Made by a program: the position numbers and the translations under genes. 21,694 bases of DNA from NCBI GenBank assembly GCA_001797815.1, contig MGQK01000081.1, forward strand, positions 159,474 to 181,167, written 5' to 3'. The notes under the pieces are model-generated. The model was not told where the DNA came from. It did no database searches and worked only from the letters and a program-made list of their open reading frames with translations. Positions 802-15,883 of the stretch are shown one piece after another; the stretch's first letter is position 1; the number at the start of each line of letters is the position of its first letter. Source of the stretch: Deltaproteobacteria bacterium RBG_13_61_14 (GTDB lineage Bacteria > RBG-13-61-14).

Positions 802-1836
802 TCATCGGACGTAAACCCGATTGGCGAGATCCAGGTATTGCACCACGTTTTCCTGGGTCACTAACTCGAAGGGGATCAGCATCTCCTTGGGCAAGGCATC
901 GCCCTTGAGGTGCCGGTAGCAGGCCTGCACCCCGCCGGCGCCTTGCGCTTCCGGGTTCTGGAAAACCGTGGCCGCGATCTTGCCGGCCAGGATCGAGTTC
1001 AAGGTCTCCGGCAACCCGTCCACCCCCACGAGCTGGATCTGGCCGGACAGCCCGAACTGTTCCGCCGCCTGCAGCGCGCCCAGGATCATGTCGTCGTTGT
1101 TGGCCAGGATGAAGGAGAAATTCTTGTCCCGGCTCAAAATGCTCTCGGTCACGCTCTGGCCCTTGCCCCGGTCATAGTCCGCGTATTGCTCAGTAAGCTC
1201 GATCTTGTCCTGCAGGCCCTCTTTCTGAAGCTCTCTCTTGAAGCCGTCGTTGCGGGCGATGTCCGTGACCTGGCCGGGCATTCCCCGCAAGTAGATCCCG
1301 CGCAGCCGTTCCTGGCCGGAGCGGCGGTAGAAATCGGCCAGCCACTTGCCCAGGAGCTCGCCCGACTCGCGCTGGTTGGAGCCGACAAAGGTCACGTAGT
1401 CGCCGCCGTTGGCCCGGCCGTTGAACTGGACCACCGGCACCCCGGTCCGGTTGGCGGCCTCGATCGAGGCCACCGAGGCGTCGAGGCTCGCGGCCTCAAA
1501 AGCCAGGCAATCAATCTTCTGGCTGAGCAGGCGCTGGACGTTATCCAGCTCTTTGCCGGTGTCGTTCATGGCGTCGGTCTCGATCAACCTGACCACCCCC
1601 AGCCGGCGCGCTTCGTTCTGGGCCGCGCGCTGCAAGGCCGCCACGTAAGGGAAGGCCAGGTTCTGATAGGATACCCCGATCACATAGACGCTCTTCTCCA
1701 CCGGGGTTGGCGCCGGGGCCGGGGCGGGTGCCGGGGCTGGCGCCGGCGCTTGCTCCGGGCCCTTTTCCGGCTTGCACCCTGCCAAGGCCGCCAACCCGAT
1801 CAAGAACATTCCCATAACCATTGCTTTGCTTCTCAT
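802..1836 (-). CDS. Sugar ABC transporter substrate-binding lipoprotein (RbsB-like, Peripla_BP_4)
   Basis: This 344-residue protein is a periplasmic binding protein of the ribose/galactose type (type 1 fold). Residues 1-20 are a lipoprotein signal with lipobox LAGC, making Cys21 the probable lipidated residue. An Ala-Pro repeat linker follows at about 29-43 and would hold the binding domain away from the membrane. The body begins VYVIGVSYQNLAFPYV and contains the family blocks FILANNDDMILGA and VGVDGLPETLNSI. The start at 1836 is set by AAGGAGG seven bases upstream and by the signal peptide; an upstream in-frame start would bury the signal behind 34 unrelated residues. It should deliver a sugar or sugar-like ligand to the permease encoded at 2277-3236. 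The two genes are separated by the S23 cassette, and no ATPase gene is present. Confidence 0.9.
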   Translation of the reverse strand: MRSKAMVMGMFLIGLAALAGCKPEKGPEQAPAPAPAPAPAPAPTPVEKSVYVIGVSYQNLAFPYVAALQRAAQNEARRLGVVRLIETDAMNDTGKELDNVQRLLSQKIDCLAFEAASLDASVASIEAANRTGVPVVQFNGRANGGDYVTFVGSNQRESGELLGKWLADFYRRSGQERLRGIYLRGMPGQVTDIARNDGFKRELQKEGLQDKIELTEQYADYDRGKGQSVTESILSRDKNFSFILANNDDMILGALQAAEQFGLSGQIQLVGVDGLPETLNSILAGKIAATVFQNPEAQGAGGVQACYRHLKGDALPKEMLIPFELVTQENVVQYLDLANRVYVR

Positions 1837-1853
1837 GAAAAAACCTCCTTGCT

Positions 1854-1881
1854 GAAGGGTGAAGGGTGAAAGGTGAAGGGT
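1854..1881. repeat. Four tandem 7-bp repeats (GAAGGGT), left flank of S23 gene
   Basis: The units are GAAGGGT, GAAGGGT, GAAAGGT and GAAGGGT. They end 4 bp from the stop codon of the four-helix-bundle gene. A matching inverted array flanks the other side of that gene at 2253-2280. Confidence 0.75.
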
Positions 1882-1885
1882 GAAA

Positions 1886-2266
1886 TCATGGTTTGGCACG
1901 CCTCTTGGTGTTGAGGATAATCCGGGTAATGATGGCAATCAGTTCATTGGTTTCTTGGATTAAAGGCGACAGCCGGGTCTTGGAAACCAAAGCCGATTCA
2001 GAGAGGAGTTTCAGCCAATACAGGCTCTCCCTCGCCTCTTTCTGGGCCAAGCCGTATTTATGAATGAAATCCGCCCGACTTTCGGCGGCCTGAGCTTCTT
2101 CCACGTTCGCTCCCACGGAGGTGGCCGAGCGCAAATACTGACGGGCGATTACTTTTCCCGCGCCATCCCCCTTCTCGATTACATATTGATACAAGCGAAT
2201 GGCTCGAAGAGCATACCTGAAGGTCCGTTCCGTGATATCCCGACCCTTCTTTCCTTCACCCTTCAT
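1886..2266 (-). CDS. Four-helix-bundle protein (S23 / 23S rRNA intervening-sequence protein family)
   Basis: This 126-residue protein fits the S23/IVP family, which forms homopentamers of four-helix bundles and is related to the Avd accessory proteins of diversity-generating retroelements. Its cellular role is unknown. Visible family features are an N-terminal amphipathic helix with AIRLYQYVIEKG, the conserved block YLRSATSVGANVEEA near residues 44-58, SRADFIHKYGLAQKEARES at about 63-81, then YWLKLL and a C-terminal ELIAII helix. The first codons (MKGEGK) lie inside a 7-bp repeat array, and GGTGAAGG serves as the ribosome site. It sits between an ABC permease and its binding protein, a place where it has no obvious partner. 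The gene is visibly more AT-rich than its neighbours and is bracketed by inverted repeats, which suggests insertion. Confidence 0.88.
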   Translation of the reverse strand: MKGEGKKGRDITERTFRYALRAIRLYQYVIEKGDGAGKVIARQYLRSATSVGANVEEAQAAESRADFIHKYGLAQKEARESLYWLKLLSESALVSKTRLSPLIQETNELIAIITRIILNTKRRAKP

Positions 2267-2280
2267 CCTTCACCTTTCAT
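2253..2280. repeat. Four 7-bp repeats (CCTTCAY type), right flank of S23 gene, inverted relative to 1854-1881
   Basis: The units are CCTTCAC, CCTTCAT, CCTTCAC and CTTTCAT, the reverse complement of the GTGAAGG-type array on the other side. The array contains the start codon of the S23 gene and the stop codon of the upstream permease gene. Confidence 0.7.
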
Positions 2281-3236
2281 CCTTTTTTCCTGAGGACACC
2301 ATCCACCCATACCGCCAGGATAATGATCCCGCCGATGACCATTTGTTGAACCGGGGAGGAGACATTGAGCATCACCAGCCCGTTGAAGAGCACTCCGATG
2401 ATCAAGGCGCCGACCAGGGTCTTGCTCACGGTGCCCCGGCCGCCGAAAAGGCTGGCCCCGCCCACCACCACCGCGGCAATGGCCTGCAACTCGAAGCCCT
2501 GCCCGGAGATAGCCTGGGCCGCGCCCAGCCGGGAGGTGAAGACCAACCCGCCGAGCCCGGCGCAGAACCCGCTGATTAAATAGACCGAAAGCTTGATCCG
2601 GCGGACATTGACGCCGGAGAGCTGGGCCGCTTTTTCGTTGCTGCCGGTGGCATAGACAAAGCGGCCGAAGCGGGTGTAGTGGAGGACGATCGAGGCTAGG
2701 GCCGCGGTCAAGAGCAGCACCAGGACCGGGACCGGGATGGCGGCCAGGCTCTCTTGCCCGAGCAGGCGATAGCCCGGCGCCAGGTTGTAGATCGGGTTCA
2801 CCCGGAACCACACCGCGAAGCCCCGAAAGGCGGTGAGGGTGCCGAGCGTGACGATCAGGGGGTTGACCCCTGCCCCGGCGATCACCGCCCCGTTGAGCGC
2901 CCCGCCCAGGAGCCCGACCAGGAGCGGCAGCAAGAAGGCGAGGGGGAGGTTGTAGCTTTGGGACCCGGATTGGGCAAAGAGCGCCGAGAAGATTCCGGCC
3001 ACGGCCAAGAGCGAGCCGACGGACAGGTCAATCCCGGCGGTGAGGATGGTGAAGAGGACCCCGATGGCGAGGATGCCGGTGACCGAGACCTGGAGCAGGA
3101 TCAGGAAGAAGTTTTCCCGGGTGCGGAACTCCGGGCTGATACTGGCGAAGACGAGCACCACCCCGAGGAGGGCCAGATAGATCCCGTACTCCCGGGCCGC
3201 CAGGAGCCACCGGCGCGAGACCGACGCGGCGCTCAT
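2277..3236 (-). CDS. Ribose-type sugar ABC transporter permease (RbsC-like, BPD_transp_2)
   Basis: This 319-residue inner-membrane protein is strongly hydrophobic throughout, with about eight to ten predicted membrane helices. The family signature AGIDLSVGSLLAVAG is at about residues 65-80, followed by GVNPLIVTLGTLTAFRGF and then GLGGLVFTSRLGAAQ. The C-terminal GGASLFGGRGTVSKTLVGAL block is typical of RbsC/XylH. It would form the channel through which the ligand of the lipoprotein (802-1836) crosses the membrane. The stop codon lies inside the 7-bp repeat array that flanks the S23 gene, so the last residues may have been changed by that insertion. RbsC-type permeases need an RbsA-type ATPase, and none is encoded here. 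The gene starts 73 bp after the DUF6282 gene and probably shares its promoter. Confidence 0.92.
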   Translation of the reverse strand: MSAASVSRRWLLAAREYGIYLALLGVVLVFASISPEFRTRENFFLILLQVSVTGILAIGVLFTILTAGIDLSVGSLLAVAGIFSALFAQSGSQSYNLPLAFLLPLLVGLLGGALNGAVIAGAGVNPLIVTLGTLTAFRGFAVWFRVNPIYNLAPGYRLLGQESLAAIPVPVLVLLLTAALASIVLHYTRFGRFVYATGSNEKAAQLSGVNVRRIKLSVYLISGFCAGLGGLVFTSRLGAAQAISGQGFELQAIAAVVVGGASLFGGRGTVSKTLVGALIIGVLFNGLVMLNVSSPVQQMVIGGIIILAVWVDGVLRKKG

Positions 3237-4901: not shown

Positions 4902-4977
4902 CTTAGTGCTGAGTGAGCAAACTCATCGAGCAAGCAGAAATGATTATGTCATCGTATTTGCGAATCGAAGCGCTAAG
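4902..4977. repeat. Palindromic repeat, unit 3 of dispersed hairpin family
   Basis: The arms are CTTAGTGCT (4902-4910) and AGCGCTAAG (4969-4977). It is a same-orientation copy of the unit at 86-160: the first 20 nt differ at one position and the last 33 nt or so at two, while the centre has diverged. It directly abuts the composite element at 4777-4897. Confidence 0.7.
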
Positions 4978-15802: not shown

Positions 15803-15857
15803 AGGTTCCCGGTTTCTGGTTTCGGGTTCTGAACCAGGAACCCGACACCAGGAACCT
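15803..15857. repeat. Long imperfect inverted repeat before rplJ
   Basis: Arms 15804-15829 and 15831-15856 are complementary at 21 of 26 positions; one outer A-T pair extends them. Each arm is built of GGTTCC, CTGGT and GGGTTC blocks, so short direct repeats coexist with the inverted one. The ribosome site and start codon of rplJ follow within 27 bp, so RNA folding here could affect initiation. Confidence 0.6.
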
Positions 15858-15883
15858 GAACAAGGAAGGGGGGTGGTGGAAAA

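Follow-up and report, generated by a model that had tools for sequence, protein, structure and literature searches.

An S23 gene between inverted heptamer arrays as a probable member of a widespread class of small mobile or mobilisable cassettes

Stand-alone genes of the S23 family are common yet unexplained, and the origin of the intervening sequences (IVSs) of 23S rRNA has been a question for decades. The window analyzed here, a stretch of 21,694 nucleotides from Deltaproteobacteria bacterium RBG_13_61_14, carries one such gene between two genes of a sugar-type ABC transporter, and raises the question of what kind of unit the gene and the short repeats around it might form. A reading of the sequence alone had proposed a mobile or mobilisable unit with its ends preserved. 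We put the probability at about 70% that the S23 gene and its inverted tandem-repeat arms together make up a single copy of a small mobile or mobilisable cassette that is widespread.

The S23 (23S_rRNA_IVP) gene, at 1886..2266 on the - strand, encodes a four-helix-bundle protein of 126 aa that matched PF05635 with 64.1 bits (cut-off 33.8) and TIGR02436 with 79.3 bits (cut-off 24), and its closest PDB structure was 2rld (E 1.3e-20). The fold of the family is a pentameric ring related to Avd, and we know of no catalytic motif or transposase signature in S23 proteins. The gene is the middle one of three on the - strand, lying not in a 23S rRNA gene but between the upstream permease gene (2277..3236; BPD_transp_2, PF02653, 145 bits) and the downstream gene for a periplasmic binding protein (802..1836; Peripla_BP_4, PF13407, 171 bits). 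The left array (1853..1884, + strand), 4.6 units of TGAAGGG with a TRF score of 57, forms the downstream arm relative to the S23 gene. Its inverted copy, the right array (2253..2284, - strand), consists of 4.6 units of CCTTCAC or CCTTCAT and forms the upstream arm. The two make an inverted pair of 30 nt at 87%; either array was matched by 0 of 2000 Markov shuffles, and the inverted match by 0 of 600. The right array contains the start codon of the S23 gene (2264-2266) as well as the stop codon of the permease gene (2277-2279), and the GC content of the S23 coding sequence was 52.2%, compared to 64.0% for the binding protein, 65.6% for the permease, and 61.8% for the window. The sequence-only reading was therefore correct in its description of the locus: the gene lies between permease and binding-protein genes, inverted 7-bp arrays flank it, the start and stop codons fall inside the right one, and the gene is more AT-rich than its surroundings.

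We surveyed 132 S23 (PF05635) loci, of which 52 came from the window's genome or relatives of it and 80 were named loci spread over many phyla, the survey taking in Chloroflexota, Nitrospirota, Omnitrophota, Planctomycetota, Acidobacteriota, Bacteroidota, Cyanobacteriota, candidate phyla, and an ANME archaeon. A locus passed as two-sided if same-period arrays lay on both sides or if the flanks gave a strong inverted match. This test was passed by 101 of the 132 loci, compared to 2 of 1447 control positions in other S23-bearing genomes, 14 of 1433 in the window's genome, and 7 of 1408 in S23-free genomes. The 31 failures are put down to decay, to contig ends, or to another kind of element, as in Acidobacteria. 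The arm units measure 6-10 bp, mostly with period 7 and less often 8, 9, or 10. Association with inverted arms is general for S23 genes across phyla, archaea included. The window's genome holds eight S23 genes, six of them with clear heptamer arms that are two-sided where the flank is unmasked, built from GGTTCCT, GTAGGTC, GGCTTTA, ACATACT (one side masked), TGAAGGG, and TTTTAGA; of the exceptions, L005 has weak arms better fitted by period 9, and L007 is masked on one side. Recurrence of the GTGAAGG-type unit at other S23 loci, which had been put forward as a check, was not seen: the unit is confined to the window copy, and the other loci have arms of the same style in other letters.

Several loci of the survey showed additional features. 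In Acidobacteria, the S23 genes of L135, L171, L175, L183, L184, and L193 lie beside a divergent gene of ~540 aa that gave no Pfam match. The right end ..AAGGGCGAAGCCCTTGCCTAGTTAG is shared, and L183 and L184 diverge directly after it, so these loci look like a larger mobile element that has taken up S23. The S23 genes of L033, from a bacterium, and L117, from an ANME archaeon, share 75% identity over 330 nt and have similar arms, a likeness that suggests transfer between domains. In genome G010 (e.g. L299-L303), divergent S23-like fragments occur in pairs at several sites, the two members separated by a few hundred bp.

Mean complementarity was 20.2 between the two flanks of the same copy, compared to 9.5 between flanks of different loci and 9.2 when the outer flanks of each locus were paired; in direct orientation the mean was 11.3. 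Within the window's genome, the arms of five copies scored 22-33 against their partner arm and no more than 12 against the arms of other copies; the exception was L004, whose partner is masked and whose upstream arm scored 21 with the downstream arm of L002. The letters of the arms vary from copy to copy, even inside one genome, while the two arms of each copy match. A fixed terminal sequence like that of an insertion sequence was ruled out, since the arms of copies in one genome differ. Across all loci, arm similarity was correlated with S23 identity (Mantel r 0.49, p 0.001), and similar arms were found in 0 of 82 pairs of S23 genes from the same genome. Loci L243 and L251, from distant hosts, have S23 genes 91% identical and arms both of period 10; in the sister hosts of L251 and L253 the S23 genes are only 76% identical, and the arm periods are 10 and 9. 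The type of arm goes with the S23 lineage, not with the host.

For the window copy itself, two other genomes of the window's class were available for comparison, one of which, G002, belongs to another family of the same order. Its permease is 77% identical to that of the window, and an S23 gene 64% identical lies at the same permease/binding-protein junction. The G002 arms are of the TAAATAG type and scored 19 when paired together and 9-10 when paired with those of the window, so that the letters have turned over completely while complementarity was kept. It would thus be pairing, not sequence, that is kept in the arms, and no other finding speaks as strongly as this turnover for regarding the arms as a conserved structure. 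Since S23 occupies this junction in a related family too, between different arms, the window insertion appears old and its arms rewritten together. On this comparison, the window copy is judged to be an old resident rather than a recent insertion; separate insertions into this junction in the two lineages could also explain it, though less simply. At the G002 locus (L379), the downstream arm lies within the binding-protein coding sequence and encodes the hydrophobic core of a lipoprotein signal peptide.

Empty and filled sites could be compared in Phocaeicola. In many species of this genus the stop codon of etfA overlaps the start of an acyl-CoA-dehydrogenase gene (acd) and the junction is arm-free, whereas in six species the same junction is filled by 494-525 bp of arm, S23, and arm. 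A filled site is nested within a clade with empty sites on the host tree, with at least 4 changes in S23 presence on well supported branches, and S23 type and arm type move jointly, against the host phylogeny. Homologous recombination in the flanks might mimic transposition in this pattern. Other Phocaeicola have an unrelated ORF of ~860 bp or a 48-49 bp insert there. At L229, L230, L232, L234, L237, L241, and L252, the junction holds an unrelated ORF of ~280 aa with an apparent signal peptide, and it looks like a hotspot for insertions. Arms and gene arrive and travel together, and cassette-free sites are arm-free.

Recent copies were found in genome G055, where four copies of one S23 element lie at different loci, are mostly 95-98.6% identical, and have the common ends GTTAAGCGC... 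and ...AATACAAGAC. One copy splits a ferritin gene, the N part covering profile positions 4-96 and the C part 99-141, and another is inserted after codon 2 of sat; neither site had a pre-existing array. About 30 S23-less derivatives of 201 bp in the same genome have the same ends, many of them in tandem. The precise shared ends at several loci, as in an insertion sequence or MITE, were measured in one element family of this one genome, and its recent copies lack the target-site duplication of such elements, none being detected beyond 1 ambiguous base. The G055 elements begin with GTTAAGC, and inspection by eye gave no matching inverse core of attC (RYYYAAC...GTTRRRY). At L370 in G055, a Y1 transposase domain lies in frame within an apparent restriction-modification gene. 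The arm-free empty sites, the near-identical multiple copies with precise ends, and the arms that track the S23 lineage uphold the proposal of a mobile or mobilisable unit for the S23 class, with the arms as part of the unit. The claim of preserved ends found no support for the window copy, given the wholly different arms beside the S23 gene at the same junction in G002.

Arrays also occur without S23. A hairpin between rplA and rplJ in the window (15804..15861) consists of four heptamers of the GGTTCCC/GGTTTCT type followed directly by inverted copies (AACCAGG type), and heptamers of this type also flank S23 copy L001 of the same genome. We counted 39 period-7 arrays in 393 kb of the window's genome, ~1 per 10 kb and most of them S23-less, compared to 0-7 arrays for each other period from 4 to 12 and 18 for period 14, a multiple of 7. 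In several cases two arrays form an inverted pair whose arms enclose 13-59 nt and no gene. No period-7 array was found in 260 kb of G055, G059, G031, G022, and G063, where the sampled S23 loci are armed, and S23-free genomes had 1 such array in 705 kb. Background arrays are common in only some S23-bearing genomes, and in 46 genomes array density showed no linear correlation with S23 copy number (Spearman 0.16, p 0.29). The S23-less arrays are best read as derivatives from which the gene was lost, or as further members of this class. Arrays elsewhere without S23 had been named as a finding that would count against a cassette, and in the window's genome this is partly the case; the cassette reading survives because other genomes have arms at S23 with no background arrays in the sampled stretches, and because S23-less derivatives with the same ends exist.

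Three further repeat structures were noted in the window's genome. Inverted arms of the CGCGGATTAACGCGGATAAA type at 584-613 and 752-786 of the window, separated by ~140 nt that hold no ORF, resemble S23 arms in style and differ in period. A dispersed repeat (CTTAGTGCTGAGT..GAATCGAAGCRCTAAG) has two copies in the window, at 63-177 and 4903-4977. At L040 (942-2495), a HicB/HicA-like ORF pair, as judged by sequence, lies inside nested inverted short-repeat arrays.

We weighed several other explanations of the arms. If S23 genes inserted into slippage-prone heptamer arrays already present in the host, the high density of S23-less arrays of the same unit types in the window's genome would be expected; the array-free orthologous empty sites, the array-free genomes with armed S23 loci, the linkage of arms to S23 lineage rather than host, and the ferritin and sat sites rule this out, and we regard it as very improbable. 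We give scarcely more than a token chance to the proposal that the cassettes are relatives or remnants of diversity-generating retroelements (DGRs), spread by reverse transcription with S23 acting as Avd. The Avd accessory protein of DGRs is a distantly related four-helix bundle, homology between PF05635 and Avd is described in the literature (PMC10053308), and related S23 proteins reached at best 29 bits against the Avd model NF033474, below the cut-off of 80. The window protein gave no match to that model, RVT_1 had no match in the window's genome (95% complete), and a template or variable repeat was not seen. Reverse transcriptase showed no association with S23 (5 of 24 S23-bearing genomes, 10 of 36 others), which, with its absence from the window's genome, rules out reverse transcription as the general mechanism.

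It is unlikely that the arms act in RNA, as a long stem around the S23 message serving RNase III processing or control of S23 translation. The window transcript is predicted to fold with its arms paired around the gene, yet its whole-transcript folding z was only -1.1. The arm upstream of the S23 gene is G-rich in 81 of 94 elements and could supply ribosome-binding sites, and S23 is co-oriented with both neighbours at 70 of 104 loci, an automatic count that mis-assigns some GC-rich genes and is indicative. The Coxiella 23S rRNA IVS, with its GACAGAT heptamers and RNase III excision, has the same anatomy (PMC4990558). Were a sense RNA stem selected, mismatches readable as G.U should exceed those of the A.C kind; between the arms of 90 elements we counted 118 G.T/T.G and 122 A.C/C.A mismatches, and thus no signal of RNA-level selection through G.U pairs. 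That absence also fits the arms being a neutral by-product, in which replication corrects a quasi-palindrome at the inverted ends and slips it into tandem units with no role in movement or S23 function. We consider this somewhat unlikely. It accommodates the complete replacement of letters at the orthologous G002 site, and also the inverted ends, a GGGGTCAG-like tag and then variable 7-mer repeats, of most RAYT-like Y1 genes of 312-327 aa in the window's genome. It leaves unexplained why S23 genes are armed in many phyla when controls and S23-free genomes almost never are, and a role for the arms once they exist would remain compatible with it.

Returning to the mobile or mobilisable cassette, maintenance of the arms at the DNA level is favoured because the G.U bias is absent, and hairpin-templated copying with slippage would be a simpler reading than an RNA stem. 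One arm would be copied from the other in a hairpin during replication, keeping the arms complementary, and slippage of the short units combined with such copying would rewrite the two ends in concert. The folded arms might then serve as a structural rather than sequence-specific mark of the ends in single-stranded DNA, with the cassette moved in trans by a Y1 (HUH, IS200/RAYT-type) transposase and the S23 protein possibly a nucleic-acid-binding helper of the movement. Y1 HUH transposases were present in 24 of 24 genomes with S23 and in 17 of the 36 without it (Fisher 7e-6; 60 genomes), and this co-occurrence makes the Y1 transposase a candidate mobiliser. The window's genome has 19 Y1 matches and G055 a single Y1 gene, and none lay inside the S23 cassettes examined. 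Y1 enzymes of the IS200/IS605 and RAYT types act on single-stranded DNA hairpins and leave no target duplication, which is consistent with such a role and is not proof of it. DDE_Tnp_1 showed no association with S23 (14 of 24 and 19 of 36 genomes), and carriage by phages gave no match in 50,697 phage records.

The nearest known systems share part of this anatomy. The Coxiella burnetii IVS has two to three GACAGAT heptamers and a degenerate one before the S23 ORF, with a 28-bp stem, and is excised by RNase III (PMC4990558). The IVSs and the cassettes have in common the S23 family, a size of ~430-500 bp, and inverted ends closing a stem, which in the window unit are predicted to be able to close around the ORF; they differ in that IVSs lie inside 23S rRNA and are cut by RNase III, whereas the cassettes lie between or inside protein genes and vary in arm letters. 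A text search with conserved 23S words placed none of the surveyed S23 loci inside rRNA, so this comparison rests on PMC4990558. REP/REPIN elements and their RAYTs are similar in that the elements are palindromic and transposase-free, Y1 genes co-occur with S23, and in the window's genome the RAYT genes, too, end in inverted 7-mers that vary. They differ in that the cassettes have no tag and no conserved REP sequence common to copies, as arms from separate copies within a genome fail to match; the cargo is S23 rather than a transposase, and dependence on Y1 is an inference. An S23 structure, Xcc0516, comes from the species whose GGGAATC heptamers have been described (Xcc). The heptameric repeats of Xanthomonas (GGGAATC) and Nostoc are tandem, mostly of four units, with slippage proposed, and the GGGAATC heptamers are often inverted pairs (70 cases in Xcc); they are discussed as G-quadruplex repeats, and no link to S23 was found in the text (PMC4692102). 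The TAACTGA repeats of Beggiatoaceae are intergenic tandem heptamers (PMC4679880) that differ in being one fixed sequence, direct rather than inverted, upstream of genes, and without an S23 link. In the excerpts of open-licence literature consulted, we found no description of heptamer arms linked to S23 genes generally; an earlier account elsewhere is possible.

As a tentative extension, possible rather than probable, the cassettes may belong to a domain-crossing class of mobile element with a purely structural end signal, whose complementary arms of short tandem units are rewritten in concert and whose folded single-stranded form is recognised and mobilised in trans by HUH transposases resident in the host; the 23S rRNA IVSs would then be cassettes that landed in rRNA and survive through removal by RNase III. 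An element whose ends are conserved as structure only would be missed by any repeat finder that looks for shared sequence. The arms connect three literatures, those on rRNA IVSs, on unexplained heptamer repeats, and on REP/RAYT elements. Through them, S23 genes acquire a defined unit along with empty sites and ends that can be tested, and the self-matching ends of the cassette suggest how stand-alone S23 genes spread.
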